Below are positions 24,779-44,215 of a stretch of 51,932 bases of DNA, piece by piece (position 1 is the first letter of the stretch; every line of letters begins with the position of its first letter). Under the pieces are notes generated by a model that saw nothing but the letters and a program-made list of their open reading frames with translations, made no database searches and was not told the DNA's origin. A program made the position numbers and the translations under genes. The DNA comes from a virus: positions 1 through 51,932 of IMG/VR virus record IMGVR_UViG_3300045836_000007. The stretch is one strand, 5' to 3'.

Positions 24779-24803
24779 ATCAACTCTGAAGGAATGTTCT
24801 GTG

Positions 24804-29316: not shown

Positions 29317-29317
29317 T

Positions 29318-29393
<76 letters not shown>

Positions 29394-29930: not shown

Positions 29931-30129
29931 ATACAAATTGTATCGGGTCTTAGTGACTCCAATTGAGTGGATTGAGAGTGTGTGCTCGTTTGTGCGTATC
30001 TTTCTATGGCATTATTGCCATTACGCCAATCCAGCAACACATATTAAACATCCGCATTTAAAACACTTTGGGCAATGGTCCGTGTTCAAAGTTGTTTCTT
30101 GGTCTTGGACCCATCGAAACGAGGAATGA
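29923..30129 (+). CDS. Possible small protein, GTG start
   Basis: 68 aa from GTG 29923, overlapping the denV end by 8 bases. Aromatic-rich with one hydrophobic stretch (IEWIESVCSFVRIFLWHYCHY), ending just before the next gene's ATG. No clear ribosome binding site; retained because it fills the gap with an open frame of coding character. Confidence 0.4.
   Translation: MDRYKLYRVLVTPIEWIESVCSFVRIFLWHYCHYANPATHIKHPHLKHFGQWSVFKVVSWSWTHRNEE
29930..29944. promoter_or_regulatory. Dispersed palindrome: GATACA-AAT-TGTATC
   Basis: Perfect arms, at the denV stop codon. Confidence 0.6.
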
Positions 30130-30130
30130 T

Positions 30131-30451
30131 ATGACTCCTGAACGTGCAAAAGAACTGTTGCCTATTATTCAGGCATTTGCTGCTGGTAAGACCGTGCAGT
30201 ATCGCCATCAAGACAGCTTCGATAGCGAGTGGAGAACTGTTGACAACCCCACATGGAGCAATGGACATATATACCGCATCAAGCCGGAAACAAGGAAGTT
30301 TCGTGTTTGTTTACTAAGGGACCCGATCCGTGCGCGCGCCTGGTTGGTCAATAGTACTGACCTAGATGTCAACAAGGTGGAGAGCTATCCCAACTTCATT
30401 CGTTGGCTCACCGATTGGGTGGAATATGAAATCCATGATTCAACTACCTGA
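30131..30451 (+). CDS. Conserved phage protein with YRIKP motif
   Basis: 106 aa from ATG 30131 behind GAGGA. ERAKELLPIIQAFAAGKTVQYR, then W..G.IYRIKPE, resembles small proteins of unknown function common in tailed phages. Ends overlapping the next gene. Confidence 0.6.
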   Translation: MTPERAKELLPIIQAFAAGKTVQYRHQDSFDSEWRTVDNPTWSNGHIYRIKPETRKFRVCLLRDPIRARAWLVNSTDLDVNKVESYPNFIRWLTDWVEYEIHDSTT

Positions 30452-30575
30452 GGGGTTAACACTAAAACAATTTGTAATTCAAATCTTCAACGCCTATTAC
30501 TCCCGTGATCCAGAAGGATTGCGGAAACTTCTTGAATCTCTTATTGAGGTGAAACATGAGCAAGATCATGTATAA
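30426..30575 (+). CDS. Small helical protein
   Basis: 49 aa from ATG 30426 (or 30435). Contains LTLKQFVIQIFNAYYSRDPEG; overlaps genes on both sides. Function unknown. Confidence 0.5.
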   Translation: MKSMIQLPEGLTLKQFVIQIFNAYYSRDPEGLRKLLESLIEVKHEQDHV

Positions 30576-31317
30576 ACTGGTGTCTAAGGACTGGACCACA
30601 CATGGGGGTATGAAGTGGGAAATTGGTAAAACCAATTGTGCTACGAAACCAGGCACTGAAATGTGTACAAACCAAGTGCTTCATTGCTACAACGACCCAA
30701 GACTAGTAGTAATCTTCAACCCTATTCATGCAAATATTTCAGGACCTCACCTTCTGGAAATTCGTGTGGATAAGATTGTCAATTCGGATGGTTTGAAGTT
30801 TGCTTCTAAAGAGCAGACTCCAATTAAGGAGATTGAACCACCTAAACTTTCCCTGAACCAAAAAGTTGCGTTTGCGATTAAATGTGCTCTATTGGTGTAC
30901 AAAGAAGCATCATTTGTGTCTTGGGCCAATAATTGGTTGGGTAATGTGGATCGCTCCGACTCCACCGCCGCCGCCGCCTACGACTACGCCGCCGCCGCCT
31001 ACGCCGCCAGAGCCGCCGCCTACGCCGCCGCCTACGCCGCCTACGCCGCCGCCTACGCCGCCGCCGCCTACGACTACGCCGCCGCCGCCACCGCCTACGC
31101 CGCCGCCTACGCCGCCAGAGCCGCCGCCTACGCCGCCAGAGCCGCCGCCTACGCCGCCGCCTACGCCGCCGCCGCCTACGACTACGCCGCCGCCGCCAGA
31201 GCCGCCGACTCCACCGCCTACGCCGCCGGCCTCGCCGACAACAAAGTTGCCGCTGACAACACTCTTGGAGATAAATTTATCGAGATTATCGATTGGGTAA
31301 TGGAGAATATTGAATAA
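30556..31317 (+). CDS. Ala-Ala-Tyr repeat protein
   Basis: 253 aa. Residues 1-135 form a globular domain (MYKLVSKDWTTHGGMKWEIG, VLHCYNDPRLVVIFNPIHAN, LNQKVAFAIKCALLVYKE) that resembles phage/prophage proteins whose C-termini carry Ala-rich repeats. Residues about 136-222 are mostly AAY/AAA/YDY tripeptides encoded by a 9-bp GCC-GCC-TAC repeat, followed by a helical tail (LGDKFIEIIDWVMENIE). Function unknown. Ribosome binding site GAGGTG. Confidence 0.75.
   Translation: MSKIMYKLVSKDWTTHGGMKWEIGKTNCATKPGTEMCTNQVLHCYNDPRLVVIFNPIHANISGPHLLEIRVDKIVNSDGLKFASKEQTPIKEIEPPKLSLNQKVAFAIKCALLVYKEASFVSWANNWLGNVDRSDSTAAAAYDYAAAAYAARAAAYAAAYAAYAAAYAAAAYDYAAAATAYAAAYAARAAAYAARAAAYAAAYAAAAYDYAAAARAADSTAYAAGLADNKVAADNTLGDKFIEIIDWVMENIE
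30964..31235 (+). repeat. 9-bp tandem repeat coding Ala-Ala-Tyr
   Basis: Degenerate GCCGCCTAC repeats, much more GC-rich than the flanks; they also create an open Pro-rich frame in another phase. Confidence 0.85.
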
Positions 31318-31457
31318 TGGCTACTGAAAGAAACAAAGTTAGAGCACAACAACTGCTCCTTGAGGGTGAAGTAGGTGTCACGGGGCTCAAAGAAATATTG
31401 ACGTTCCTCAGTCGTTGTGTTTGTTTTTTGTTGGCTCGTTATATCAACGGAGATTAA
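31317..31457 (+). CDS. 46-aa protein with hydrophobic C-terminus
   Basis: ATG 31317 overlaps the preceding stop (TAATG). Polar N-terminal half, then LTFLSRCVCFLLARYI, a possible membrane-associated helix. Function unknown. Confidence 0.55.
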   Translation: MATERNKVRAQQLLLEGEVGVTGLKEILTFLSRCVCFLLARYINGD

Positions 31458-31458
31458 A

Positions 31459-31650
31459 ATGCTGATTCGTAAAGTTGATCGTTACACGTATGATGTGTTT
31501 GGTGATGTGGGCTTTGACAACTGGAGCCGCATCCACAAGTTCCCGTGGGGATACAAAGTTGTAAAAGGTATCCGACTGGATAAGGAACTGATGGATCAAG
31601 TGATCCAAAAGCTCCAGGAGTTTCCTCGTGGTTCTCTTCAAAATGTGTGA
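31459..31650 (+). CDS. Small early protein
   Basis: 63 aa from ATG 31459 (GGAG upstream). Beta-rich start (LIRKVDRYTYDVFGD) and a helical end. No family recognised. Confidence 0.6.
   Translation: MLIRKVDRYTYDVFGDVGFDNWSRIHKFPWGYKVVKGIRLDKELMDQVIQKLQEFPRGSLQNV
31550..31565. promoter_or_regulatory. Dispersed palindrome: GATACA-N4-TGTAAA
   Basis: Inside the gene at 31459 (codons for YKVV). Confidence 0.55.
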
Positions 31651-31657
31651 GGTTTAA

Positions 31658-31978
31658 ATGCTTCGTAAGATTCGTTATCACCACTGTCAAAGTAAGTGGT
31701 GGAAGACTGCCTACAAGGGCTACAGCATCATGATGATTCCTGTGGATCAGGAATATGTGGAGCTGCGCCATACGTTCTGTTCCCAACAAGATCAATTCTG
31801 CAAGAGGCAGGCTCGTGAGGAATTGCAGCACAAAGAAGGTGCTATTATTCCCGTGAGTCTTCTTCCACAAGCGGTGGCTGAAATATCTTCTCAAATGTGG
31901 AACGGCGTTCGCATCGGCACCGGCGTTCATGGGGAAAATGCCGATATGTTTGCTTGGTTGTGGAAGTATTTTCTGTGA
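31658..31978 (+). CDS. Hypothetical early protein
   Basis: 106 aa, rich in aromatic and basic residues at the N-terminus (KIRYHHCQSKWWKTAYKGYS), helical after residue 40. No recognised motif. Ribosome binding site GAGG seven bases before ATG. Confidence 0.6.
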   Translation: MLRKIRYHHCQSKWWKTAYKGYSIMMIPVDQEYVELRHTFCSQQDQFCKRQAREELQHKEGAIIPVSLLPQAVAEISSQMWNGVRIGTGVHGENADMFAWLWKYFL

Positions 31979-31986
31979 GGTGAGTT

Positions 31987-32079
31987 ATGGACTGGATTGA
32001 TATGACTAAACTCCTAGTGTTTGTTGCTGGGTTCGCGGGCATTGTTCTTGTGTTTTGTTTTTTGATGGAAAAATTGTAA
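31987..32079 (+). CDS. 30-aa single-span membrane peptide
   Basis: MTKLLVFVAGFAGIVLVFCF hydrophobic helix with a short N-terminal acidic flank; GAGGTGAG ribosome binding site. Second tiny membrane peptide of the early arm. Function unknown. Confidence 0.55.
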   Translation: MDWIDMTKLLVFVAGFAGIVLVFCFLMEKL

Positions 32080-32085
32080 ATAATC

Positions 32086-32247
32086 ATGTGCCCTATCTGT
32101 CACGAAACTCGTGTGTGTAATAACTGCATCAATGCAGAGCTTCGCTGTATTTCCTACGAACAAGAGGAATTACAACCTGTAAAGAGGAAATTCATTGGCT
32201 CTGGTGAAGATGTTCGTTTGGAGGATTTGGAAGAATGCTTGGACTAA
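32086..32247 (+). CDS. Small zinc-ribbon-like protein
   Basis: 53 aa with C2-x2-C5-x5-C11-x2-C14 at the N-terminus (MCPICHETRVCNNC), then an acidic helical tail. Probably binds one zinc. Its stop overlaps the next ATG (TAATG). Confidence 0.55.
   Translation: MCPICHETRVCNNCINAELRCISYEQEELQPVKRKFIGSGEDVRLEDLEECLD
32169..32183. promoter_or_regulatory. Dispersed palindrome: ATTACA-ACC-TGTAAA
   Basis: Inside the zinc-ribbon-like gene. Confidence 0.5.
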
Positions 32248-32438
32248 TGAAGCAAGGCACACAATTGCCTATGGATGAAGTGATGACGTACCTGCGTAGT
32301 ATCCAAGGTGCCGAGTATCCTTCTGTTGTCATCTATCCTCTTGGGCACATCCATGTGCTCGATCTCGGGGACAAGGCTATCCAGAAGTTCAAGGATGCTG
32401 ATGAGTTCTTGAGCCACATTCGCAAAGGAAAGAAGTGA
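32247..32438 (+). CDS. Hypothetical early protein
   Basis: 63 aa from ATG 32247; ATG 32235 is an alternative. Mixed alpha/beta (PSVVIYPLGHIHVLDLGD), Lys-rich end. Coupled at both ends to its neighbours. Confidence 0.55.
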   Translation: MKQGTQLPMDEVMTYLRSIQGAEYPSVVIYPLGHIHVLDLGDKAIQKFKDADEFLSHIRKGKK

Positions 32439-32842
32439 TTACTCTCTCAATTGAGAAACACAAGGGGTTATATACTCCTAATTTTCCGATCAACAATCGA
32501 CGATGGAATCCCATCACTAATGAATGGCAGGATAATGATCGACCTTCAGAAAAACCAAAACTCGGCAAACTTGAGTACTCGTTGCACCTACAACGCAAGG
32601 ATATTACTGTAGGGGACTGGGTGGTTTACTCTGGTTGTGTGCAGTTGACTGAAAATAATATCTTCAAAGTGGTTTACGTTGAGGAAATGCACCATTTGTG
32701 TAATGACTATGACCACGACAATAATCCGAAGGCATACATTATTAAACCTGTACATGGGAGTCCGTTCAAGAGTTCTTGCTCATTCCATCGTAAGGTGGCT
32801 GAAAGCGAGGTGCCTCAAGAAATCAAGGATAAATTCAAGTGA
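32435..32842 (+). CDS. Hypothetical protein, GTG start
   Basis: 135 aa. GTG overlaps the previous stop (GTGA). Contains VGDWVVYSGCVQLTENNIFKVVYVEE, a short beta-barrel-like stretch comparable to the EPGDMVCRRSKRSKETGQVINVED segment of the next gene, so the two may share a fold. No known family. Confidence 0.55.
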   Translation: MITLSIEKHKGLYTPNFPINNRRWNPITNEWQDNDRPSEKPKLGKLEYSLHLQRKDITVGDWVVYSGCVQLTENNIFKVVYVEEMHHLCNDYDHDNNPKAYIIKPVHGSPFKSSCSFHRKVAESEVPQEIKDKFK

Positions 32843-33162
32843 TTACACAATCTATTTACAAGGTTGTATCTAAACCACACAGAACTCCACATACCAACGA
32901 AGCCAAGCCTCGATTCGTTGCTGGCTCTGAAGAACACAAGCGATATATCTTCCAGAAAACCTTGGATGAAACCAAGTTCGAGCCGGGAGATATGGTGTGT
33001 CGGCGTAGTAAACGAAGTAAAGAAACTGGTCAAGTCATCAATGTGGAAGACACATTTGAAATGGTCAGTTGGAATGGTTTGATGTGCAAGTTCATTGAGG
33101 TTTATTGGTACGACAGCAATGATATGGGCTTGTATCATCCTTCTGAATTAAGAACGGGGTAA
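32839..33162 (+). CDS. Hypothetical protein, GTG start
   Basis: 107 aa. Begins GTG-ATT like its upstream neighbour and overlaps it by four bases. FEPGDMVCRRSK..TGQVINVED suggests a small barrel similar to that of the upstream gene; possible duplication followed by divergence. Confidence 0.55.
   Translation: MITQSIYKVVSKPHRTPHTNEAKPRFVAGSEEHKRYIFQKTLDETKFEPGDMVCRRSKRSKETGQVINVEDTFEMVSWNGLMCKFIEVYWYDSNDMGLYHPSELRTG
32855..32870. promoter_or_regulatory. Dispersed palindrome: TTTACA-N4-TGTATC
   Basis: Inside the 5' end of the gene at 32839 (codons for YKVV). Confidence 0.55.
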
Positions 33163-33164
33163 AT

Positions 33165-33500
33165 ATGTATCCTTACGTGGTAATGGTTATGAAGGAACCA
33201 TACAACATCACTAATTATAACTTCATTGACGATCAAACAGGTGGGGTTGCCAAGGCACTTGTCTATGCCAATCCTACGGAGTATAACCAACCAGGATTAG
33301 ATAGTACAGAAGATTTTTTGCGTAGGTCGTCCATTATCTTCTGCAAGACTGCTCAGTTTGCAGAAGTGGCTGCAAAGGAATTGGCAAAAGCACAGCCTGG
33401 AGCTGAAGTCATGATCCTGCAAACTACTTCTGTGGTTACTGCTCCCCCTGGTGTTCCTGTTGTTTCTACTGTTACTGAGAAAGGAGTTCTTCCGAAATGA
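33165..33500 (+). CDS. Hypothetical protein
   Basis: 111 aa. Central helical part (AQFAEVAAKELAKAQPGAEV) and a Val/Thr/Pro-rich C-terminus. Not recognised. Confidence 0.6.
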   Translation: MYPYVVMVMKEPYNITNYNFIDDQTGGVAKALVYANPTEYNQPGLDSTEDFLRRSSIIFCKTAQFAEVAAKELAKAQPGAEVMILQTTSVVTAPPGVPVVSTVTEKGVLPK

Positions 33501-33715
33501 GTTATCTTAAGCAAACCACCAAGATGGGTACCTGGAAGGCCCGTAAGGTTGAGAAGGGCCATCGTGCCTCCCGTACCCCTGGTAATAAGAAGGGCCTTGT
33601 TCCTCCTTCATGGGCGAGATATATCTGCCGATCCAATCGTTCGTACAAGCATTCCATGTATGAGCGTTGGTCTGAACTCTGTAACGGTCAAAAGATTAAG
33701 TGGAGTGCTGCATGA
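33497..33715 (+). CDS. Small basic protein
   Basis: 72 aa, very rich in Lys and Arg (KARKVEKGHRASRTPGNKKG), ends KIKWSAA. Overlaps both neighbours by four bases, directly before the amide-bond enzyme cluster. Could be a nucleic-acid-binding protein or a modification substrate; no evidence decides. Confidence 0.6.
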   Translation: MSYLKQTTKMGTWKARKVEKGHRASRTPGNKKGLVPPSWARYICRSNRSYKHSMYERWSELCNGQKIKWSAA

Positions 33716-34344
33716 ATCTCGCTGCGTGTAAGCTGGGTACGGGAATGTTCTTCCCGTTTGACAACATGGGTTTGTTCAACGATAGCAAGGTTGTAAATAA
33801 CCCTGATGATCTGACATCAGACGATTGTCTCGTCGTTTGGGGTGGTGCTGATATTAGTCCCAGCCTGTATGGCAAGAAAGCTAGTCGTTATTGTCATGCA
33901 GATGAGCAGCCGAGTTATCGTGATGCTTACGAGTGGGCGTGCATGCAACGTGCAAAGGAACTAAAGATTCCTATCATCGGTGTGTGTCGTGGTGCCCAGA
34001 TGCTGTGTGCATTGGCTGGTGGTCATCTGATCCAGCATGTTGACAATCATGGTAGCCATCACAGTGTGGTGACTAATGATGGGCTGGAACTGAAGGTTAA
34101 CAGTCTGCACCATCAGATGATGTATCCGTGGAATGTTAACCATGTGCTTGTTGCCTGGTCCAAGGATGCACGTAGCGGGGTTTACTACGATGAAAACAAT
34201 CTTGTAAATGTTCCGTGTGAACCTGAGTTTGTCCACTTCCCTGACGTGCGTGGCGCTGCAATTCAGTGGCATCCTGAGTTTATGTCGGGTGATGCTGAGG
34301 CAACTCATTACCTTGCTAATTGGCTGAAGGAGAATCTTCTGTGA
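33712..34344 (+). CDS. Class I glutamine amidotransferase / gamma-glutamyl hydrolase (PuuD-like)
   Basis: 210 aa. Catalytic triad visible: nucleophile Cys92 in GVCRGAQM, His187 and Glu189 in QWHPEF; oxyanion-side WGGADISP near 43-50. The family hydrolyses gamma-glutamyl amides or releases ammonia from glutamine. First member of a run with two amidoligases, a class II glutaminase and an ATP-grasp ligase, so it likely supplies ammonia or trims a gamma-linked product. ATG 33712 lies behind GGAG. Confidence 0.82.
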   Translation: MNLAACKLGTGMFFPFDNMGLFNDSKVVNNPDDLTSDDCLVVWGGADISPSLYGKKASRYCHADEQPSYRDAYEWACMQRAKELKIPIIGVCRGAQMLCALAGGHLIQHVDNHGSHHSVVTNDGLELKVNSLHHQMMYPWNVNHVLVAWSKDARSGVYYDENNLVNVPCEPEFVHFPDVRGAAIQWHPEFMSGDAEATHYLANWLKENLL

Positions 34345-34799
34345 AACAGGTTATTTATGGTGATTGTGGTCTTCTAAGGGATTATACACCTAAGTTTGAA
34401 ACTGGACTGAATTCATCTTTTAGAAATGACTGGCTTTTTACCCAGCCAGGGGAGAATCTAACCAATGGATGGCCTCTGGCAATGGGGGCATCATTGGGTG
34501 CAACCAATTGTTGTGGTGGATTTACTTTCACTCTAGTAGGTAGTGTTAACTATGTAACTTTACTAGAACTTCTTAGGACTTTGAAGAAAACAGTATTTGT
34601 CTTCTCAACTCCAAATAACGGAGGTGTTTATACCGCTAAGGAGGTTTCACGACAATTTCAAGCATTGAAAACCATAGCAGAAGAAAGGTACAAAGGACTT
34701 CAGCTTCAATGTATTGAATTGCAAGAGGGATTACTTTACTTGGTTACGGTACAAATTAATAACCAAGATACCTTTAAGTCCTTCTACAGTGGAGAATAA
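34341..34799 (+). CDS. Unknown cluster protein, GTG start
   Basis: 152 aa from GTG 34341 (AGGAG upstream, overlap GTGA). Two Cys in ATNCCGGFTF; alpha/beta, with no recognised motif. Position inside the amide-bond cluster suggests a related role. Confidence 0.55.
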   Translation: MKQVIYGDCGLLRDYTPKFETGLNSSFRNDWLFTQPGENLTNGWPLAMGASLGATNCCGGFTFTLVGSVNYVTLLELLRTLKKTVFVFSTPNNGGVYTAKEVSRQFQALKTIAEERYKGLQLQCIELQEGLLYLVTVQINNQDTFKSFYSGE

Positions 34800-34802
34800 A
34801 CC

Positions 34803-35078
34803 ATGAAACTTGGCAGCCTATATATTTATCAGGACTCTCAATATACTTGGGAGAAATTAAAAGAATTAAAGTTGAAGGATTGCGACCATGCTATTGTTGT
34901 GGGGGTAGCCAACGTTGGTAGTCACTTCGATCTTGACTACTTTCTCAAAAGGTTTCCACAATTTAAAGTAGTCCATCGTCTTCCTGATATGATTAATAAT
35001 AATTATTGGGTACCTCCTGAGCAGTACAAAGATTCTTCTCACATGCTTCAAACCGCAATTCTCACTTGGGATAAGTAA
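34803..35078 (+). CDS. Unknown cluster protein
   Basis: 91 aa. Contains DCDHAIVVGVANVGSHFDLDYFL, a Rossmann-like beta-alpha start. Not recognised. Immediately upstream of the first amidoligase. Confidence 0.55.
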   Translation: MKLGSLYIYQDSQYTWEKLKELKLKDCDHAIVVGVANVGSHFDLDYFLKRFPQFKVVHRLPDMINNNYWVPPEQYKDSSHMLQTAILTWDK

Positions 35079-35079
35079 C

Positions 35080-35856
35080 ATGCAATTCAAAATCGGCGCA
35101 GACCCCGAGATTTTCGTGGGTGATTCTCAATCTGTTCGTTCCATCATTGACAAGATTGGGGGGACTAAGGAATGCCCTGCTCCTTTGCCTCTCGGTGATG
35201 GTTTTGCTGTGCAAGAGGACAACGTAGCGTTGGAGTTCAATATTCCTGCCTCGTCTGGTAAGGATCAATTTGTCAGCAACATTTCTGCTGCAATGGAATT
35301 CTTGGAAAACGTGGTCAAGGATCGTTACGGATACAACTTTGTAAATCAAAGTGCCGTGAGTTTTCCTGAATCTGAACTTATTGATCCGCGTAGTTGGGTG
35401 TTCGGATGCGATCCTGACTTCAATGCGTGGACCCTGAAGCGCAATCCTCGTCCTAAGGCGAAGGATCGTAATCTCCGCTCTTGTGGTGGGCATGTCCACA
35501 TTGGTTGTGAACTTACCAAAGATCAGAAGATTGAACTGGTTCGCATGTTGGACATGAGGCTTGGTGTTCCGTCCACTCTGATGGATCAAGGGGAACTCCG
35601 TAAAGAACTATATGGTAAGGCCGGGGCTTTCCGTGATAAGCCTTATGGTTTGGAGTATCGTACCTTGAGTAACTACTGGGTGTTCGATAAGAAGTTGATG
35701 GGTTGGGTGTATGAACAAGTAGACCGTTCACTGGACGCAGTGATTAGTGGTGAGTCTGCATCTTCTGAGAAGGACAACATTCTGGCTGCTATCGACGGAA
35801 ACAACAAAGACATCGCTGCGATGCTGGTTGGGAAGTATTCTCTGGAGCTTGTGTAA
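35080..35856 (+). CDS. Amidoligase, phiEco32-type COOH-NH2 ligase
   Basis: 258 aa. The start IGADPEIFVGD, then EDNVALEFNIP, SCGGHVHIGCEL and GLEYRTLSNYWVF, are the metal/ATP-binding signatures of the glutamine-synthetase-fold carboxylate-amine ligase family first noted in phiEco32-like phages. It is predicted to form an amide bond between a carboxylate and an amine using ATP. The substrate is unknown. Stop overlaps the next ATG. Confidence 0.82.
   Translation: MQFKIGADPEIFVGDSQSVRSIIDKIGGTKECPAPLPLGDGFAVQEDNVALEFNIPASSGKDQFVSNISAAMEFLENVVKDRYGYNFVNQSAVSFPESELIDPRSWVFGCDPDFNAWTLKRNPRPKAKDRNLRSCGGHVHIGCELTKDQKIELVRMLDMRLGVPSTLMDQGELRKELYGKAGAFRDKPYGLEYRTLSNYWVFDKKLMGWVYEQVDRSLDAVISGESASSEKDNILAAIDGNNKDIAAMLVGKYSLELV
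35330..35345. promoter_or_regulatory. Dispersed palindrome: GATACA-N4-TGTAAA
   Basis: Inside the first amidoligase gene (codons for YNFV). Confidence 0.5.
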
Positions 35857-36449
35857 TGCTGGAAGTATTCAAGTCTAATGGGTGGAATGATTTCCGCCAA
35901 CGGTATTCAAATACCTACGGGTGGTATAACCACGAAGGCAAGAAAGTCATGGTTCACGTTGACGAGGTGTTTGAGGATGAAGTACATTTCTCTGATAAGA
36001 ATGGAGTAAAGTACAACGCCATCGCCGACAAAGGTGTGACGTTTGAATTTCTTCCCGTTCAGCGTGGTGTTTACAACTATGTAAATGATGACCTTCTGTA
36101 CGTCAGCCGCAAGCCTGCACGTATGTGGAAGCGTGGCATTGCGATGGACAATACAAACTTTTACAGCTTCCGAAAAGGTGCTGTTCGCCCAGACTTCTCC
36201 ATGTTGGAGACAGTGTTTGGTACTCCTGCCACTAACCCCATTACTGATTGGGTGAAGGGTAAGAGAAACAATGTGGCTCTGTCCCCACAGTTCTCTGTGT
36301 ATGACAATAAGGTCTTTCTATATGACCAGAAGATTGGGGTGTACAAGACTGGAGTAATTACCCTTGACACTAATCTGTTCTCTCAAGAAATCACTGACCT
36401 CATTCGCAAGAATGATTTGGCCTACACTGTGGAGGTGGCTAATGGGTGA
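35856..36449 (+). CDS. Unknown protein between the two amidoligases
   Basis: 197 aa, beta-rich, with GVYNYVNDDLLYVSRKPARMWKRGIAMDNTNFYSF and SVYDNKVFLYDQKIG. Some phages encode a protein like this beside such ligases, which hints at a partner or substrate role. Overlaps the next gene by eight bases. Confidence 0.55.
   Translation: MLEVFKSNGWNDFRQRYSNTYGWYNHEGKKVMVHVDEVFEDEVHFSDKNGVKYNAIADKGVTFEFLPVQRGVYNYVNDDLLYVSRKPARMWKRGIAMDNTNFYSFRKGAVRPDFSMLETVFGTPATNPITDWVKGKRNNVALSPQFSVYDNKVFLYDQKIGVYKTGVITLDTNLFSQEITDLIRKNDLAYTVEVANG
36070..36085. promoter_or_regulatory. Dispersed palindrome: TTTACA-N4-TGTAAA
   Basis: Perfect arms, inside the gene at 35856 (codons for YNYV). Confidence 0.55.
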
Positions 36450-37590
36450 CTATAGTAAGCATAATATCGCGGAGATCACTGGGCGTAAACCACCTACTCC
36501 GTACAACTCCAAACATGGTACTTTGACTATGGCATCCCCTGCCACCGTCGTTGGATTGGAATTGGAGATTGAAAACTTCACCATTAATAAGGAGCATGTT
36601 TTTGGTGGATTCACTTTTACTACTGATGGTAGTCTCCGTAATAATGGTATTGAGGCGATCACCAAGCCTGTAATGATGGCGCATGTGCCTCCATTGTTGG
36701 AAGCATTCTATAAACACTTCGGTGTCACTCAGGATAATTATTCTGAGCGATGCTCTACCCATGTGCACATGAATGTGCTGGACATGACGGTGGAACAGTT
36801 AGGTACTCTGTCGTTGTTGTATCAAACTCTGGAGAGACTGCTGTTTGCTTTCATCAGCAACAATCGTGGGATGAATATCTTCTGTGTTCCTTGGTACCAG
36901 TCTAGTATCAATTACACGCTTGTAACGAAGATGTTTGCTGATCCACACTACACCTTGCGCCGGTGGCAGAAGTATTCTGCTCTCAACTTCCTTCCGGTGT
37001 ATGAACAAGGGAGTATCGAATTCCGTCACTTGTATGGTACTTGTGATGTGAAGTTGATTACCTCGTGGTTGAACATCCTTGGACGGATGCGAAACTATGC
37101 AACCACATTCTCTCTGGATCACCTGAAGAAGCATCTTCTCAATATGAATACTATTTCCAACTACAACTCATGGTTGGATGAAGTGTTCTTGCAGGATGCC
37201 TATCTCTTGAAGCAGTTCCGTGACTTCGAGGGTGAGTTGAGTCTCGGTGTGGTGGATAGTAAGGCTATGTTGTACGGGTCTTCTGAGAAGAAGGAAAGCT
37301 TGCTCGAAAGGCTGATTAGACGCCAACAAGAAGAGAATCAACAGATTATTGCAGCACAGCGGGAGATTGCCGCGCAAACTGCACAAGCTCCTCTTAATCC
37401 ATGGAATTTTACTGCAGTTGACCAAGGGCTTGCTGTCAGACAAGGTATGGCTGCACAGAATACTGTTGTTGTTGCGGGTACAGCAGGTCAAGGAAATTGG
37501 GTTCAACAAGCGGCTCAACTGCAACCTCTCGAACACTGGCCGGAACCTCAGGACTTTGGTTTTCCTGATGATGACGACAATAATTTTTAA
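36442..37590 (+). CDS. Second amidoligase (GS-fold, Amidoligase_2 type)
   Basis: 382 aa from ATG 36442. VGLELEIENF, CSTHVHMNVLDMT and GSIEFRHLYGT carry the paired acidic, HxH and E-x-R residues of the family. The last about 110 residues are Gln/Ala-rich and disordered, ending in an acidic FPDDDDNNF tail. It differs clearly from the ligase at 35080, so the two probably act in successive steps. Confidence 0.82.
   Translation: MGDYSKHNIAEITGRKPPTPYNSKHGTLTMASPATVVGLELEIENFTINKEHVFGGFTFTTDGSLRNNGIEAITKPVMMAHVPPLLEAFYKHFGVTQDNYSERCSTHVHMNVLDMTVEQLGTLSLLYQTLERLLFAFISNNRGMNIFCVPWYQSSINYTLVTKMFADPHYTLRRWQKYSALNFLPVYEQGSIEFRHLYGTCDVKLITSWLNILGRMRNYATTFSLDHLKKHLLNMNTISNYNSWLDEVFLQDAYLLKQFRDFEGELSLGVVDSKAMLYGSSEKKESLLERLIRRQQEENQQIIAAQREIAAQTAQAPLNPWNFTAVDQGLAVRQGMAAQNTVVVAGTAGQGNWVQQAAQLQPLEHWPEPQDFGFPDDDDNNF
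36911..36926. promoter_or_regulatory. Dispersed palindrome: ATTACA-N4-TGTAAC
   Basis: Inside the second amidoligase gene (codons for YTLV). Confidence 0.5.
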
Positions 37591-37605
37591 CTAGGAAATA
37601 CCTAA

Positions 37606-39018
37606 ATGTGTGGACTTGTTTGTGTAATTACTAAGCAGCAGAATGGTTTCAACAAAGAACAACAGGATGTGTTCGAGCTTCTGTTGTTCATTGATACTCT
37701 GCGTGGTGAGGATTCCACTGGTACTTTCCTAGTGGAGAATAATGGGAATGTGCATCTGGCAAAGGATGCTCTCAATGGGGCTAACTTTATTGAAACGAAT
37801 GAGTATCAATCTCTGAAACGCAAAGCGTGGAGTTCAGGTTGGGCAATGGTCGGTCATAATCGCAAGGCAACTCGCGGGCAAATCACCGACAAGAATGCAC
37901 ACCCGTTTGTAGTTGACAACAATATTGTTCTAGTGCATAATGGTTCTTACTTCGGGGATCATAAGCATCTGAAGGATACTGAAGTTGACAGTGAGGCAAT
38001 TGCTCACCATATCTCGGATGCTGGTGACAACATTGAAGAGGCAATGCGTAAGGTACATGCCGCTTATGCGTTGATCTGGTACAACGTGGAGAAGAAGCAG
38101 CTTCATATCCTGCGTAACGATCAACGCCCTTTGTGGCATATCGAAACTCCCAATGCATACATCTTCGCCTCAGAGAAGTCTTTTCTGGAATTTGCAATTA
38201 CAAGATGTAATCTGAAGCCAAAGGAGGCACCATATCTTCTTGCTGATGAATACTTGCTGACGTACACTCTCAAAGATAATCGTAATACTGATTTCGTCCA
38301 AAAGGAGGTGGACGTTAAGTACCGATTTCAACAAACACAGCACACCAATCTCTTTCCGCACGGACAAGCTACTCCGGTACGCCAAATCGCACACCATAAC
38401 ATCGAAGACGCCTGCGGTTACTGGCCCGGCTGTGGTTGGGGTGAGTTCGATGGGTATGAGGGAGCAGCCGAGGATGTCCCGTTTAGAACTCCTGCTAATG
38501 ATGGGAATAGCACTCCTCGTTTACCTGCTCCTGAAACGCCTGTAGTTGATACGTCAAATATCAAGGAACATTTCGGGAAGGAACCTGTGAACACACCTAG
38601 ATATATTGCGGGAGAAAAGATGTATGATGTTCTTGGTGAAAATGCTGTGGTTACTAAGTTCAAAGAATACCAGTCTACTGCGGAGAAAATCAAGACTGGT
38701 CAGAAACTACGTGTCATTATCAATGACATGATCGAAGCGGATGATAATCCGAAGACTACAAACTTCTTCTTGATGGGGGAGACTCTTGATGATAGTAAGA
38801 TTCACGTTAGCCTTCCTATGAAAGAGAATGATTTTTCCAAGTTAATGAAGTGTGCTAATGAGGCAATCTTTGAGATTGAAGTTGATGCCATCACTTGGAA
38901 GCGTACTGATCTAAAGGGGTCTACCAACATGGAGGATTGGGAAGGTATGATGATTCTTCATGGTAAGAATCCTGTTCAAATCGTTCCAGTGGAAGGGGAA
39001 GAACATCGTGTCCAATAA
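37606..39018 (+). CDS. Class II glutamine amidotransferase (GlmS-type N-terminal domain)
   Basis: 470 aa. MCGLVCV exposes Cys2 as the nucleophile; GEDSTGTF, GHNRKATRG, LVHNGSY and DSEAIAHHI line the glutamine pocket as in GlmS/PurF. Residues about 1-220 form the glutaminase; no sugar isomerase or synthetase domain follows. The C-terminal half has a proline-rich linker and a beta-rich module (about 350-465), perhaps for partner binding. Probably delivers ammonia to a ligase of the cluster. Confidence 0.85.
   Translation: MCGLVCVITKQQNGFNKEQQDVFELLLFIDTLRGEDSTGTFLVENNGNVHLAKDALNGANFIETNEYQSLKRKAWSSGWAMVGHNRKATRGQITDKNAHPFVVDNNIVLVHNGSYFGDHKHLKDTEVDSEAIAHHISDAGDNIEEAMRKVHAAYALIWYNVEKKQLHILRNDQRPLWHIETPNAYIFASEKSFLEFAITRCNLKPKEAPYLLADEYLLTYTLKDNRNTDFVQKEVDVKYRFQQTQHTNLFPHGQATPVRQIAHHNIEDACGYWPGCGWGEFDGYEGAAEDVPFRTPANDGNSTPRLPAPETPVVDTSNIKEHFGKEPVNTPRYIAGEKMYDVLGENAVVTKFKEYQSTAEKIKTGQKLRVIINDMIEADDNPKTTNFFLMGETLDDSKIHVSLPMKENDFSKLMKCANEAIFEIEVDAITWKRTDLKGSTNMEDWEGMMILHGKNPVQIVPVEGEEHRVQ
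38197..38211. promoter_or_regulatory. Dispersed palindrome: ATTACA-AGA-TGTAAT
   Basis: Perfect arms, inside the class II amidotransferase gene, in a different codon phase from the N4 sites. Confidence 0.6.
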
Positions 39019-39736
39019 GCGTAAGGTGGTTAAGATCAATCCTAACCGCATCGTAGTAACCTCTCACAATCTGCGTTCAAATGCTCTTAAATCTCTGGCG
39101 AGTGCTCTGTCTGAGCGCGTGGGTTATAAAGTATGGCGTGTTACTCCTGATAGGGTACGTGGTCGCCGAGCTGTGGTATTCCATCAAGGGGTGGATAAAA
39201 TCGAGCAGTTCCGGCGATTCCACGAAGCAGGAGTAAGCGCTCCAAAGTTCTCTACTAATTACAATACTGTAAAGGAAGATATTGACTCAAGACAAATTGT
39301 ATGCCGTGCTCTCACTAATTCCTCGGAGGGTCGTGGAGTTTCTATTCACGAGAGGGATTCTGAGTTACCCCGCGTACCTCTCTACACTGCGTACATCCCC
39401 AAGAAACGGGAGTTCCGTGTCCACGTCTTCGACAACGAAGTAATTGATGTTGCGGAGAAGCGTAAGCGTCGTGGGGAGAATCCTGATCGCAACACTCAAA
39501 TCCGCAATACTGCTAACGGTTATGTCTTTTGCCGTGGTGATATTGTTGAGCCTAGCGATCTTAGGGCTCTCGCTGTATCTGCCGTTCGTGCTCTTGGACG
39601 CACTCAAGGGGCAGTCGATATCATCTGGAACGAAAGGCAGAACAAGTCTTTCGTACTGGAAGTAAATAGCCGTCCAGGTATGGAAGGCACAACCGTGCAG
39701 CGTTACGTTGATGCTGTACTTCGTAGGTACCAATAA
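39008..39736 (+). CDS. ATP-grasp ligase (RimK-like)
   Basis: 242 aa from GTG 39008, overlapping the previous gene by 11 bases. ATP-grasp landmarks: SSEGRGVSIH (phosphate loop), KKREFRVHVF, then GAVDIIWN and VLEVNSRPGMEG, the Mg/ATP-binding D..LExN motif. It would activate a carboxylate as an acyl-phosphate and join it to an amine. It completes the set of two ligase folds and two ammonia suppliers. Confidence 0.85.
   Translation: MSNKRKVVKINPNRIVVTSHNLRSNALKSLASALSERVGYKVWRVTPDRVRGRRAVVFHQGVDKIEQFRRFHEAGVSAPKFSTNYNTVKEDIDSRQIVCRALTNSSEGRGVSIHERDSELPRVPLYTAYIPKKREFRVHVFDNEVIDVAEKRKRRGENPDRNTQIRNTANGYVFCRGDIVEPSDLRALAVSAVRALGRTQGAVDIIWNERQNKSFVLEVNSRPGMEGTTVQRYVDAVLRRYQ
39258..39273. promoter_or_regulatory. 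Dispersed palindrome: ATTACA-N4-TGTAAA
   Basis: Inside the ATP-grasp gene (codons for YNTV). Confidence 0.5.
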
Positions 39737-39954
39737 TGCGTTGTATTAGTTGTAACCGTGCTCTAAATGATTTCGAGAGTACAAGAAAAGATACTCATGG
39801 GAATTACTTAGATATGTGTAGGAAATGCTTTCGGGATATTGAGGATGTAGTTCCTACCATTGATCGTGATGATCTTAACGAGTTTGAAGAACTTGATGAT
39901 GAAGATTTTGCAGAGTATTCTGAAGAGATTGAAGAAGGAGATGAAGATGAGTGA
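39736..39954 (+). CDS. Small zinc-finger protein with acidic tail
   Basis: 72 aa. N-terminal CISC (3-6) and CRKC (28-31) form a four-Cys zinc site; residues about 45-72 are almost all Glu, Asp and hydrophobics, ending EEGDEDE. ATG overlaps the ATP-grasp stop (TAATG). Its carboxylate-rich tail is a conceivable target for the cluster's ligases, but that is speculation. Confidence 0.6.
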   Translation: MRCISCNRALNDFESTRKDTHGNYLDMCRKCFRDIEDVVPTIDRDDLNEFEELDDEDFAEYSEEIEEGDEDE

Positions 39955-40273
39955 TCCTATTTACGCATTTAGAGAAGATATCCCCGGTGCTTGTGGTATT
40001 TGCCACATCCAAGACTTTAATACTGAGGACGATTTTGATCTAGAAGAACTTACTGAGTGTGGTCGATGCGGCGGTGCCGGGTTTGCTATTGCTTCATTTA
40101 TTGAAACTACAAGTGAATACCACCGGGCACAGGCTGAAAACTCTCAACAAGCATACGAAATTCTCAAGAAGAAATATAAGGTTGTATATGAATCTCCGAA
40201 GAGATTGAATAACAACACTGGTAATATGTTCTGGTTCTGTGTTTATGATACCACTAAAAAGGGAGAAGAGTAA
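39947..40273 (+). CDS. PGACG-motif protein, paralogue A
   Basis: 108 aa from ATG 39947 (AAGGAG). Shares DIPGACGI, an ASFIE segment, and an internal repeat of spacing with the next gene, so the pair arose by tandem duplication. This copy also has an extra CGRCGGAG. Function unknown. Confidence 0.6.
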   Translation: MSDPIYAFREDIPGACGICHIQDFNTEDDFDLEELTECGRCGGAGFAIASFIETTSEYHRAQAENSQQAYEILKKKYKVVYESPKRLNNNTGNMFWFCVYDTTKKGEE

Positions 40274-40560
40274 TGGCTGTGTATGCTTGGGATGACCAGG
40301 TTCCTGGTGCTTGTGGTGTGTCAGCTCTGAACGGGTTTAGTCTTGATAATGGGGATTGGTTGGGTCCATACTTAAAAATTGGTAGTAAAAAGTTGGACAA
40401 TGGTGGAAAACTGGTATTTGCTTCATTTATTGATAACGAAGAATGTAAAGCTGCGTATGATGAAATGTGTAAGCATTACAAGTTGTTATACCAAACTGAG
40501 CCGCGCCCTAATAAGTTTCATGGAAATAGAAAATTCTTTGTAGCTCTGTTTGAATATTAA
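40273..40560 (+). CDS. PGACG-motif protein, paralogue B
   Basis: 95 aa. QVPGACGV, FASFID and a KHYKLLYQTEPRPNKFHGN end align with the upstream paralogue. Both junctions are TAATG overlaps, tying the pair to the ligase cluster and to the primase. Confidence 0.6.
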   Translation: MAVYAWDDQVPGACGVSALNGFSLDNGDWLGPYLKIGSKKLDNGGKLVFASFIDNEECKAAYDEMCKHYKLLYQTEPRPNKFHGNRKFFVALFEY

Positions 40561-41357
40561 TGAGTAGGTTTGACCATTATGAATGCTGTCCAAAATGCAG
40601 GGACAACGGTAGGGATTCACGAGGGGACAATCTCGCTGTTTGGTCTGATGGCAGCGCTCACTGCTTTAGCTGTGGGCACCATGTGTGGCCGAAGCACTAC
40701 GTCCCCAAGCAAGAGGAACGAAAGGACTGTAATGCCTCAAAAGTGTTACCTTCTGACTTCACCAGAGAAGTTCCAGCAAGAGGATGGCGATGGCTCCTCC
40801 AATACGGACTCCCATACAGCTACTGGCAACCGTACACCGGCTATTCTGAAAAAGATGAAAGACTCATCATCACCATCCCAGACACAAGTAACGTGGCCTT
40901 TTCCCTCGGGCGTTACATCGGAGAATCCTCCTCCGAAGGAAATCACGCATCAAGAAGAAAGTGGTATGCCTACGGAAACTGTCATGAATCCGCCCACCTG
41001 CTCTACCCAGGATGGAACAAAGAAGGATCAGAAGGCAATGACATTCGTGGAGATTATCTTGAGAGCAGAGAGGTCGTCCTCGTAGAGGATATTATCTCAG
41101 CACATAAAGTAGGACAAACAAATGCTTGCATTCCTCTTTTTGGTACTCATATCAGCGATCCCGTTGTTAATCTTCTTCGCTTTATTGGATTACCTGTGGT
41201 ATTGTGGCTGGACAAGGATCAAGAAAATGGTATTCAAAAGAAAGCAATGGGATTATCTATTCTCCTAAATAAACCAGTGAGATATATATTTACCTCAGCC
41301 GATCCTAAATTACACAGTGTAAATCAAATTAAGGATATTCTAAATGAATCGGTTTAA
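40560..41357 (+). CDS. DNA primase (zinc finger + TOPRIM)
   Basis: 265 aa. An N-terminal zinc-binding domain (Cys10, Cys13, Cys35, Cys38) reads the template, followed by a compact TOPRIM fold with VVLVEDIISAHK (conserved Glu) and LWLDKDQENG (Asp-x-Asp). Resembles the primase half of T7 gp4, with the helicase encoded separately downstream. Starts at the stop of paralogue B. Confidence 0.88.
   Translation: MSRFDHYECCPKCRDNGRDSRGDNLAVWSDGSAHCFSCGHHVWPKHYVPKQEERKDCNASKVLPSDFTREVPARGWRWLLQYGLPYSYWQPYTGYSEKDERLIITIPDTSNVAFSLGRYIGESSSEGNHASRRKWYAYGNCHESAHLLYPGWNKEGSEGNDIRGDYLESREVVLVEDIISAHKVGQTNACIPLFGTHISDPVVNLLRFIGLPVVLWLDKDQENGIQKKAMGLSILLNKPVRYIFTSADPKLHSVNQIKDILNESV
41309..41323. promoter_or_regulatory. 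Dispersed palindrome: ATTACA-CAG-TGTAAA
   Basis: Near the 3' end of the primase gene. Confidence 0.55.
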
Positions 41358-41523
41358 ACCAGAACGGCTGGAGCCCAACAGCGTGTCTATGGGTATGGAT
41401 GAGAATGGTGCTTGGGTGAAGTATGATGATCTCCCTGTGTGGTACAGGAAGAGTGTGGAGCTTTTTGAAAGGCTCACCAAGGGGTCTAAAACGCCCCAGG
41501 ATCAACCGAAACGAGCAGAGTAA
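41344..41523 (+). CDS. Small protein after primase
   Basis: 59 aa from ATG 41344 (AGGA eight bases upstream), overlapping the primase end by 14 bases. Polar, with WVKYDDLPVWYRKSVELFERL; no family recognised. Confidence 0.6.
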   Translation: MNRFKPERLEPNSVSMGMDENGAWVKYDDLPVWYRKSVELFERLTKGSKTPQDQPKRAE

Positions 41524-41536
41524 GGGGTGGGTAGCC

Positions 41537-41746
41537 ATGAAACATAAAATGGATTGTGCAGCGAATCTTGGAAGCCAATGTGAATGTGGGCTTGACAAAC
41601 AGGAAGAAAAGTGGTACACTATTAACCTGAGTGAAGAAGAGTGGTACGCTCTTTTTAGGGCGATGGAAGATCGAGTTGAGTTGTATCACTTTCCAGAGGA
41701 TGCTTTCCTCCTTGACAGATTGATAAATCTTAAAGGAAGTACTTGA
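41537..41746 (+). CDS. Small protein with CxC motif
   Basis: 69 aa from ATG 41537. Cys6, Cys15, Cys17 and an acidic, aromatic helix (NLSEEEWYALFRAMEDRVELYHF). A promoter lies within the gene. Function unknown. Confidence 0.6.
   Translation: MKHKMDCAANLGSQCECGLDKQEEKWYTINLSEEEWYALFRAMEDRVELYHFPEDAFLLDRLINLKGST
41592..41620 (+). promoter_or_regulatory. Promoter inside the 69-aa gene
   Basis: TTGACA (41592-41597), 17-bp spacer ending TGG, TACACT (41615-41620). Confidence 0.65.
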
Positions 41747-41771
41747 CAAGTTGAAGGAATTGTGATACCCT
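41743..41771 (+). promoter_or_regulatory. Promoter before the helicase gene
   Basis: TTGACA (41743-41748), 17-bp spacer ending TGA, TACCCT (41766-41771); start near 41778. The -35 lies in a perfect small inverted repeat ACTTG-A-CAAGT. Confidence 0.65.
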
Positions 41772-41801
41772 AATATAATTAATTATTAAAGGAATATAAT
41801 T

Positions 41802-43049
41802 ATTAATTATAATTTAGAATTAATATTAATTAAAATACTTCTCTATAAAGAGAAGTATTTCTTATATAAAGAATATATTGATATTAAATATATTAAAGAA
41901 AACCTTAATGAGGTTTTCTATTTATATAAAGTATTAGATACTCTTCATAATGAATTAAATAAAGATTTAAGTATTGATGAATTAAAAGCAGCATTCTATG
42001 CTGCTTATCCTGATAGTAATTACAATGTGTATAATCCGCTGTTTGATGCTATCGCAACAGCGGATATTTCATTGGAGGCTGGAGACAAGATTCTCCAGCA
42101 AATCAAGCAGAGGAAATCTCTGCTGAAACTAAGCGAGGTAGCATATGCTGCGACCCAAGGTAGGGCTGTTCTCGAAGACGTTCAGCGACTCACTGAGGAA
42201 GTCTGCTGTGCGAAGGAAGAAGTTCTGGATGAAGAGGTATTTGTCTCAGATGACCTCGAAGCGCTTATTCAAAGCGCTGTGCAAAAACCTGGGTTACGAT
42301 GGAGACTTAACTGCCTCAACAAATCCCTCGGATCGCTGAGAAAGGGTGACTTTGGTTTCATTTTCGCTAGGCCGGAAACGGGCAAGACTACGTTCCTTGC
42401 CTCAGAAGTGTCCTACATGCTTACACAAACGGACAAGGACATTATCTGGTTCAACAACGAGGAACAAGGTGAGAAGGTCATGCTACGGGTATACCAAGCA
42501 TTCTTCGGGGTTACTCTACACGAACTCATCGGGAATGCCTCTACCTACCGTCAAGCTTTTTCTGATCGTGTGGGGGGTCGTTTCCGTCTTGTCGATAATG
42601 CTTCGGTTACTAAAACCAATGTAGAAAGGCTTTTACAACGTGTTAACCCCGGGTTGATTATCTATGACCAAATTGACAAGATTAAAGGCTTCAAGGCGGA
42701 TCGTGACGATCTTGTATACGGGGAAATCTATCAGTGGGGTAGAGAACTCAGTAAAAGCTACGCGCCTTCCATCGGGGTGTGTCAAGCGGGTGGTATGGCG
42801 GAGGGGCAAAAGTGGCTCACTATGGATCACGTATCCAACGCGAAAACCTCGAAGCAAGCTGAAGCGGATTGGATTTTGGGTATCGGTAAAACTCACGAAG
42901 AGTCTACCGAGTACATCCGGTTCCTTAACATCAGTAAGAACAAACTCATCGGTGATGAAGACTCGCTTCCTAATCTGAAGCATGGTAGATTTGAAGTATT
43001 GATTCAACCAGAACAAGCGAGGTATAAAGATATTGTGGATTACCAATGA
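41802..43049 (+). CDS. Replicative DNA helicase (DnaB C-terminal family), ATT start
   Basis: 415 aa hexameric helicase. RecA core: Walker A ARPETGKTT (189-197), Walker B LIIYDQID (285-292), later SNAKTSKQAEADWIL. The first in-frame GTG (42027) would remove 75 residues of obviously coding N-terminal domain (LLYKEKYFLYKEYIDIKYIK, DLSIDELKAAFYAAYP). The frame opens at 41790 with no ATG/GTG/TTG before them. AAAGGA (41788-41793) points to ATT at 41802 or 41799. The first 200 bases are extremely AT-rich compared with the rest. Confidence 0.85.
   Translation: MNYNLELILIKILLYKEKYFLYKEYIDIKYIKENLNEVFYLYKVLDTLHNELNKDLSIDELKAAFYAAYPDSNYNVYNPLFDAIATADISLEAGDKILQQIKQRKSLLKLSEVAYAATQGRAVLEDVQRLTEEVCCAKEEVLDEEVFVSDDLEALIQSAVQKPGLRWRLNCLNKSLGSLRKGDFGFIFARPETGKTTFLASEVSYMLTQTDKDIIWFNNEEQGEKVMLRVYQAFFGVTLHELIGNASTYRQAFSDRVGGRFRLVDNASVTKTNVERLLQRVNPGLIIYDQIDKIKGFKADRDDLVYGEIYQWGRELSKSYAPSIGVCQAGGMAEGQKWLTMDHVSNAKTSKQAEADWILGIGKTHEESTEYIRFLNISKNKLIGDEDSLPNLKHGRFEVLIQPEQARYKDIVDYQ
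41833..41860 (+). promoter_or_regulatory. 11-bp hairpin in the 5' coding region of the helicase
   Basis: AAATACTTCTC/GAGAAGTATTT with loop TATAAA, 31 bases after the ATT start. The core CTTCTC/GAGAAG matches the hairpin below PL. Could mask translation or be part of an origin. Confidence 0.6.
42019..42033. promoter_or_regulatory. Dispersed palindrome: ATTACA-ATG-TGTATA
   Basis: Inside the helicase gene, at the end of its AT-rich 5' segment. Confidence 0.5.
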
Positions 43050-44215
43050 AGCTAGTCTATGACGTTGAAACTACCATTAGAAATAAAGGCAATCCCTATA
43101 CAGCAAGTAACCGCCTCGTCTCATTCAGTGTTAGAACAGAACAGGATAACTCTTGCTCTTTCTTTTATCACGATCACCCGGCTTTCATCAGTGAGCTTAG
43201 GCGCCTTATTTCGGAGGCTACCTTACTCATAGGACTGAATCTAAAGTTCGACATTGCTTGGGCGAGACGATACGGAGCAGTAATCCCTAAAGGCTGTAGA
43301 ATTTGGGACTGCATGCTTGCTGAATTCATTTTATCTGGACAAACAAATTCCTTTGCCAGCATGGAAAGCCTATGCGAACGGTATGGCATCCCTGGCAAGG
43401 AAGATGCGGTGGCCCAGTATTGGGCGCAAGGTATTGATACCGACAAGATTCCAGTAGAAATATTACAAGAGTATGGAAACGGTGACGTTGAGCGCACTTG
43501 GAAGATTTACCAAGCACAACTCAATGACCCCCGCATGACTCCTAAATTACACAAATTAATTCTTCTAGATGGTGCTGATCTTTTAGTGCTCCAGGAAATG
43601 GAGCAGAATGGATTGAAATATGACATTGAACGGTCTAAAGCTGAAGCTGAAAGGCTTAGGGCAGAGCTTACTGAAACCGATAACTTTCTGCTTGACTTGG
43701 CTGATCGCTTTCCCATTAACCTTGATTCTGGGGATCACCTCTCTGCTTTTCTCTATGGCGGCGAAGTCGTTATTGAACGCACAGAGCCTATTACCCTTGT
43801 CTACAAGACTGGTCCCCGTAAAGGTGAAGAGTACACTCGCAACAGAGTGGTGGAAGTTCAGAGAAAGAATTTTCCAGGTTACTTTAAACCATTGGCTAAG
43901 AGCGAGATTGCTCGATCAACCCCCGAGCGTCCATTATATTCTTCTGCGGAGCCTATTCTTAAACAACTCAAATGTAGATCAAAGATTCAGCAGCGAATTA
44001 TTGAATCGCTACTTCGCAGAGCGGAACTCTCAAAACTGATTGAGACATATTTAATTAAGCTCCCTGAGCTTATTGAAGAAATGGAATGGGGTGAGTATCT
44101 ACATGGGCAGTACAACCAAGTGGTCGCGCGTACTGGACGGCTTTCGTCGTCTAAACCAAACATGCAAAACAATCCTTCTGAGGTGGACCGGATGCTCATC
44201 ACCAGATATCCCTGA
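43046..44215 (+). CDS. DNA polymerase I family, N-terminal half (3'-5' exonuclease, thumb)
   Basis: 389 aa. Exo I DVETT (6-10), Exo II NLKFD (65-69), Exo III Y143..D147 (EYGNGDV); then the thumb and the first polymerase motif TGRLSSSKPNMQNNP. The frame stops at CCC-TGA (44210-44215), a known kind of +1 slip site. A +1 shift extends the protein by 24 residues (DPNWTEEERSMWEYGEMLRR...) to TGA 44286-44288, which overlaps the ATG of the palm half. Catalytic motifs A to C are in the next gene. Confidence 0.88.
   Translation: MKLVYDVETTIRNKGNPYTASNRLVSFSVRTEQDNSCSFFYHDHPAFISELRRLISEATLLIGLNLKFDIAWARRYGAVIPKGCRIWDCMLAEFILSGQTNSFASMESLCERYGIPGKEDAVAQYWAQGIDTDKIPVEILQEYGNGDVERTWKIYQAQLNDPRMTPKLHKLILLDGADLLVLQEMEQNGLKYDIERSKAEAERLRAELTETDNFLLDLADRFPINLDSGDHLSAFLYGGEVVIERTEPITLVYKTGPRKGEEYTRNRVVEVQRKNFPGYFKPLAKSEIARSTPERPLYSSAEPILKQLKCRSKIQQRIIESLLRRAELSKLIETYLIKLPELIEEMEWGEYLHGQYNQVVARTGRLSSSKPNMQNNPSEVDRMLITRYP

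Follow-up and report, generated by a model that had tools for sequence, protein, structure and literature searches.

The cluster and its setting

The virus record IMGVR_UViG_3300045836_000007 in IMG/VR – analyzed here at its whole length of 51,932 bases and referred to as the window – carries eleven tightly packed open reading frames (ORFs) with short overlaps that fill positions 33712-40560 of the plus strand. An initial annotation of this DNA described these as a cluster for amide-bond chemistry with two glutamine synthetase (GS)-fold ligases, an ATP-grasp ligase and two glutaminases, and all of the genes it named are present, closely packed and on the plus strand. We refer to the genes as A to K in their order along that strand:

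A, 33712-34344, +, Peptidase C26 / class I glutamine amidotransferase (GATase)-fold protein, probable gamma-glutamyl-amide hydrolase; core
B, 34341-34799, +, found in the window only, with no homologue in 130 other loci; probably outside the module
C, 34803-35078, +, found in the window only, with no homologue in 130 other loci; probably outside the module
D, 35080-35856, +, phiEco32-type COOH-NH2 ligase, predicted GS fold; PF14395, phrog_3815; core
E, 35856-36449, +, uncharacterized conserved protein between ligases D and F, candidate new fold and proposed ligase partner; core
F, 36442-37590, +, Amidoligase_2 family ligase; PF12224, phrog_7469; core
G, 37606-39018, +, class II glutamine amidotransferase (N-terminal nucleophile, Ntn) domain with an uncharacterized C-terminal part; PF13522; core
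H, 39008-39736, +, RimK-like ATP-grasp ligase with a GTG start; phrog_2599; core
I, 39736-39954, +, small acidic CxxC...CxxC protein, zinc-ribbon-like; accessory
J, 39947-40273, +, PGACG-motif paralogue 1; lineage-specific
K, 40273-40560, +, PGACG-motif paralogue 2; lineage-specific

Ten of the cluster proteins were scanned against Pfam, with matches for A, D, F, G and H, and the same five match PHROGs families with E-values from 4e-31 to 1e-75. The assignment of two GS-type ligases, an ATP-grasp ligase, and class I and class II GATase-fold proteins is thus borne out by both databases. A DnaB-like helicase and a family A DNA polymerase are encoded nearby (42027-45001), placing the module among DNA replication genes, and it has the same neighborhood in LUZ24, PA11, CVT22 and phiEco32. 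A megablast comparison of positions 30000-45000 with phage genomes gave no match.

Judged by its gene content, the cluster is already known in outline and belongs to the putative peptidoglycan-modification module described in podoviruses (RIO-1, PSA-HP1, phiEco32, LUZ24/PaP3, PA11, CW02), with which it shares the PF14395 and PF12224 amidoligases, the ATP-grasp enzyme, the class II GATase, and the location beside replication genes. Its C26-type protein A is like that of PA11 and CVT22, whereas LUZ24, phiEco32 and PSA-HP1 use a gamma-glutamyl cyclotransferase (GGACT), and unlike these podoviral relatives the window carries the lineage-specific genes B, C, J and K. For RIO-1-like phages the cluster has been described as a ‘peptidoglycan modification cassette’ that also occurs in phiEco32, 7-11, PA11, tf, MR299-2, LUZ24, PaP3 and CW02, and the genes named in that account include the two ligases, the cyclotransferase and the ATP-grasp enzyme (PMC5498523). 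A LUZ24-like phage was interpreted in the same way, with two suggested roles: superinfection exclusion, or the making of endolysin targets or weakening of the wall (PMC11945000). These proposals cite Iyer 2009 and Hardies 2013. Elsewhere, an amidoligase and a GATase are listed as auxiliary genes of OM43 phages (PMC10580990), and the same gene types have been read as nitrogen-metabolism genes in Phage-ZRK32 (PMC10945688). To these descriptions we add a definition of the core, the recognition of E as part of it, and the regular presence of a gamma-glutamyl remover.

Core genes and distribution of the module

Viral contigs were scanned with D, giving 51 and then 529 relatives, with the best 80 of the 529 kept; the kept D relatives together with GenBank stretches form a set of 131 loci, whose genes were annotated with iterated profiles. 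F and G are each found in 127 of these, H in 123, E in 115 and A in 110, and all module-gene matches but one share the strand of D. In the 81 loci that are well covered – at least 4.5 kb upstream and at least 6 kb downstream of D – F, G and H are each present in 79 and E in 71. Of the 115 loci with D, E and F, 110 have them next to one another in this order, in most cases with overlaps or at distances within 50 nt. Two gene orders dominate, A-D-E-F-G-H, which is that of the window and the commonest in the set, and A-G-D-E-F-H. Chance clustering can be ruled out, with module genes standing together on one strand in 131 loci.

The core of the module thus comprises A, D, E, F, G and H, with I as an accessory gene in about half of the loci (67 of 131, always on the strand of D). 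Homologues of B and C occur in none of the 130 other loci, and those of J and K, beyond each other, only as single matches in L062, L070 and L129; these four genes are lineage-specific and probably outside the module. The extent of about 7 kb proposed initially therefore holds for A, for D to H and, about half of the time, for I, and not for B, C, J and K. Of the three unknowns for which conservation with the ligases was the question, those at 34341 (B) and 34803 (C) are not, and only that at 35856 (E) is.

The spread of the module among phages is broad. GenBank phage records include 313 with D and 308 with H, distributed nearly identically over organisms, and this agreement, together with the 131 loci, gives strong support to co-conservation, the absence of which would have counted against the initial reading. 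D is almost confined to viral contigs: a scan of approximately 85,000 one-per-species bacterial and archaeal genomes, which works with short patterns and detects fairly close relatives only, found a D relative in eight contigs of metagenome-assembled genomes (MAGs), and these may be binned phage. One locus (L058) is the crAss-like phage cr108_1, with A, D, a class II GATase, an ATP-grasp gene and an N-terminally extended F beside a primase and a helicase, and the module is therefore not confined to podoviruses of Proteobacteria. Two contigs of 200-300 kb (L021, L023) have D, A and a GGACT, and the flank fetched for them shows no E, F, G or H; they may represent a reduced form of the module. 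Two copies of H per module are seen in L014, L020, L027, L030, L045, L046, L048 and L049.

Of the two ligases, D matches PF14395 (COOH-NH2_lig; 4e-12) and phrog_3815 (1e-75), and its AlphaFold2 model (predicted local distance difference test score, pLDDT, 95; predicted TM-score, pTM, 0.92) has the GS/glutamate-cysteine ligase (GCL) fold, with a Foldseek match to the GS fold at probability 1.00, an E-value of 4e-5 and a TM-score of about 0.45, indicating a distant relationship. The model also matches GCL and YbdK, with Pup ligase and depupylase at lower rank. F is predicted to be a GS-type ligase from its match to Amidoligase_2 (PF12224; 5e-6; phrog_7469, 3e-37). Sequence searches found no PDB homologue for D, E or F. 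Alignment with relatives reveals conservation of His138-x-His140 and of acidic and Arg positions in D, and of Glu40/42/44, His107-x-His109, Glu193 and Arg195 in F.

G matches PF13522 (GATase_6; 2e-14) and has GlmS as its nearest PDB relative. In the window it starts with MCG, and R86, N112, G113 and D128 are invariant in the alignment; 99 of 131 G homologues show a simple MCG-type pattern close to where the start was called, and among the rest several begin with ICG or are truncated. H exceeds the gathering score of Pfam RimK (21 bits) narrowly, at 22.2 bits and 1e-4, and matches phrog_2599 at 1e-45. Its nearest PDB relatives are RimK-type alpha-L-glutamate ligases (2e-16), with D-Ala-D-Ala ligases matching weakly; against the NCBIfam RimK model TIGR00768 it reaches 25 bits, relative to a cut-off of 143 bits. 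Lys64, Asp204, Glu218 and Asn220 are conserved in H. Its gene context is unrelated to that of the RimK-type ligases. The loss of active-site residues that could have discounted the cluster is not seen in A, D, F, G or H, and the enzymes look active from the conservation of these motifs across relatives, the conserved columns presumably having the catalytic roles of their counterparts in PuuD, GlmS, glutamine synthetase and ATP-grasp enzymes. The suggestion that I is a split-off domain of G was considered and rejected, because loci with I do not tend to lack a CxxC...CxxC motif in the C-terminal region of G (no anticorrelation, p 0.29).

Protein E matches only uncharacterized phage families; it belongs to no Pfam family, and sequence searches of the PDB give no credible relative. 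Its AlphaFold2 model (pLDDT 94, pTM 0.85) has zero matches in the PDB at E-values of 0.001 or below, and 11 phage proteins do match; E, a core part of the module, is a candidate new fold. The most conserved residues are R85, R89 and G94, and the C-terminus is not conserved. Single-protein searches of viral contigs with E recover close relatives only, and in LUZ24-like GenBank phages E adjoins both ligases. We propose that E is a physical partner of D and F. Loci lacking a detectable E have an unusual form of F: an N-terminal extension of at least 120 amino acids, mostly 160-250, is present in 11 of the 12 loci with F and no detectable E (L022, L028, L037, L038, L058, L105, L106, L111, L116, L117 and L131), and in one of the 115 loci that have E (p 6e-14). 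The extension might be an E fused to F, but comparing profiles reveals no similarity between the two, and several of these loci may belong to a single lineage. The extension in L037 resembles zinc ribbons.

The probable gamma-glutamyl remover, A or GGACT

A matches Peptidase_C26 (PF07722; 3e-19), its triad of C92, H187 and E189 is invariant in 27 sequences, and its nearest PDB relatives are Lin1909 and PuuD. The best NCBIfam match is gamma-glutamyl-CDP-amidate hydrolase (NF045546; 2e-13), with 51 bits relative to a curated cut-off of 250; the PuuD equivalog NF008471 scores 27.4 bits relative to 266. Homologues of A are rare in GenBank, being found in 63 of 50,697 phage records, mostly in phage groups that carry D; those outside such groups include short Listeria and faecal contigs.

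Because a GGACT gene lies inside the cluster of UFV-P2, LUZ24 and phiEco32, being gp22 in LUZ24 and gp77 in phiEco32, we compared its distribution with that of A. Among the 81 well-covered loci, 58 have A only, 12 have GGACT only, 11 have both, and none has neither (Fisher p 2e-8; 2e-4 when the set is thinned so that D proteins are less than 55% identical). Every well-covered module therefore has a putative remover, either a C26 protein or the unrelated GGACT. The GGACT genes were confirmed by PF06094 in ten tested, and have an invariant Glu. No GGACT was found in the window genome. A second set of loci, from an H-seeded scan with the earlier loci excluded, includes 13 whose flanks are long enough; D, F and G are present in every one of these, and in 12 the flank also holds A or GGACT. 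The exception, L218, is a 446-kb contig without C26 in which a GGACT lies approximately 2 kb beyond the fetched flank, so that the rule held in 13 of 13.

A class I GATase can supply ammonia; GGACT releases pyroglutamate and a free amine, and so cannot. If either protein suffices for the module, their interchange implies that the common activity is removal of gamma-glutamate, and the constant presence of one or the other argues that A takes off gamma-glutamyl groups and is not a source of ammonia. The label of two glutaminases is therefore probably wrong for A, which is nearest to gamma-glutamyl-amide hydrolases.

A pairing of ligase and remover is familiar from other systems. The Puu pathway uses the GS-fold PuuA and the C26 protein PuuD, and the butirosin side chain an ATP-grasp ligase and the GGACT-type BtrG; the module resembles both in that a ligase of the GS-fold or ATP-grasp type is paired with a remover of the C26 or GGACT type, in the manner of gamma-glutamyl protection and deprotection. 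However, none of the oxidase, dehydrogenase, carrier or decarboxylase families of these pathways is matched in the ten cluster proteins, and the window differs further in having two GS-type ligases, E and a class II GATase, such that the module is not a member of either pathway. The NF045546 enzyme comes from the Campylobacter capsule phosphoramidate pathway, where it removes gamma-glutamate from an amide nitrogen. Although this is the best NCBIfam match of A, A is no equivalog, and partner enzymes of the Campylobacter pathway are unmatched in the cluster.

A possible pathway and its alternatives

On balance we favor, by a modest degree, a reading of the module as a phage-owned cytoplasmic pathway for amide-bond formation with a gamma-glutamyl amide as an intermediate. 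D and F, physically partnered by E, would use ATP to activate carboxylates for coupling to amines, and one of the two would make the gamma-glutamyl amide. G would hydrolyze glutamine and may feed ammonia to a ligase, H would add a further amino acid, and A would strip the gamma-glutamyl group by hydrolysis, as the GGACT cyclotransferase would in related phages. We infer the order of these steps, the formation of a complex and all of the substrates. The highest 19-residue mean hydropathy in the window is 1.43, with no membrane-helix-like stretch in any of its proteins, so the chemistry should be cytoplasmic. A stronger version, to which we give only tentative credence, is that this is a virus-only pathway unlike any cellular one as a unit, in which ligases arranged around a new-fold E build a gamma-glutamyl-protected amide, either of two unrelated deprotectors releases it, and the product – a metabolite or a wall unit – is new to biology.

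Several points weigh against a gamma-glutamyl pathway. A scores far short of the curated cut-offs in all of the NCBIfam hydrolase models. A and GGACT are not strict alternatives, since 11 of the 81 loci hold both, and their alternation reflects few independent events, with six changes for A and five for GGACT on the best tree; two contrasts lie on well-supported branches, and a sign test is not significant. The partnership of E with the ligases is proposed from gene order, and we found no demonstrated activity for the module enzymes in the literature. Nor did the literature searched, which did not extend to Iyer 2009, Hardies 2013 and De Smet 2016, provide an experiment identifying a substrate or product, consistent with the initial statement that the product is not known; gp16-22 go unmentioned in a LUZ24 ORFan screen, as do ligases of this kind in the CRISPRi-ART text.

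Cytoplasmic precursor peptides of the cell wall are the likeliest single candidate acceptor, although that is a minority expectation. The module would introduce unusual linkages into wall precursor peptides, either excluding superinfecting phages or preparing the wall for lysis, as proposed previously (PMC5498523, PMC11945000), and we regard this too as possible rather than probable. Wall precursors are cytoplasmic and bear free amines, carboxylates and a gamma-glutamyl bond, and the presence of the module in phages of very different bacteria is as expected for a universal target. H also matches D-Ala-D-Ala ligases weakly, but is closer to the RimK-type glutamate ligases, and Pfam detects neither a Mur-ligase-like nor a wall-binding domain in the ten cluster proteins. 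Moreover, the PaP3 counterparts (p47, p48 and the primase ORF40) are middle-expressed with replication genes, and are not in the earliest class. The RimK-type relatives of H would fit protein modification, in which a protein of the phage or the host would receive glutamate or other amino acids from H and the amidoligases, and the resulting tag would be edited by A or GGACT; the lower-ranked likeness of D to Pup ligase and depupylase agrees with this. We consider it unlikely, because H is far below the NCBIfam RimK cut-offs and there is no conserved small tag protein, the C-terminus of E being unconserved and neither J and K nor B and C being conserved. The weight remaining after wall and protein acceptors falls to small molecules and to two minor rivals.

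One of these, a nitrogen-assimilation or amino-acid auxiliary metabolism helping the host use ammonia during infection, was proposed for Phage-ZRK32, whose similar gene set includes an E homologue, but growth was measured there with the whole phage and not with single genes (PMC10945688). Five dedicated ligases and amidohydrolases are more than ammonia uptake needs, and D is not of a host type, as the scarcity of its relatives in bacterial and archaeal genomes attests; we find this improbable. Slightly more remote still is hypermodification of DNA, with amino-acid adducts on phage bases. Some phages do attach amino-acid-derived groups to bases, and replication genes adjoin the cluster, but DNA of the module-bearing LUZ24-like phage U17 is cut by 11 of 16 restriction enzymes, that of Delta, another such phage, is cut by BamHI, and no base-modifying enzyme was detected among the subset of window proteins scanned.

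The preferred reading, a gamma-glutamyl amide pathway, concerns a module that hundreds of phages carry in their genomes, with bacterial hosts that differ greatly, and the recognition of E as core and of a constant remover narrows its chemistry to a kind that can be assayed directly. The genes relevant to its function would be A or GGACT, D, E, F, G and H, and B, C, J and K could be left aside. If the product is a modified wall precursor, the module would be a phage route to rewriting host peptidoglycan; if it is a small molecule, it would be a new viral metabolite.

Other features of the window include the neighboring family A DNA polymerase, which extends over two ORFs, 43046-44215 and 44285-45001, with approximately 70 bases between them, corresponding to PF00476 profile positions 52-133 and 153-378; the gene may be truly split, or a frameshift or an error of assembly may account for the break. 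A piece of a ribonucleotide reductase large subunit (PF02867) lies at the left end of the record (27-914). A tRNA-Gly (24804-24878, minus strand) overlaps ORF 24092-24880, on the same strand, at its called start, so that the true start of this ORF is probably further downstream, and a tRNA-Leu and a tRNA-Arg are arranged in tandem on the plus strand at 29230-29393.

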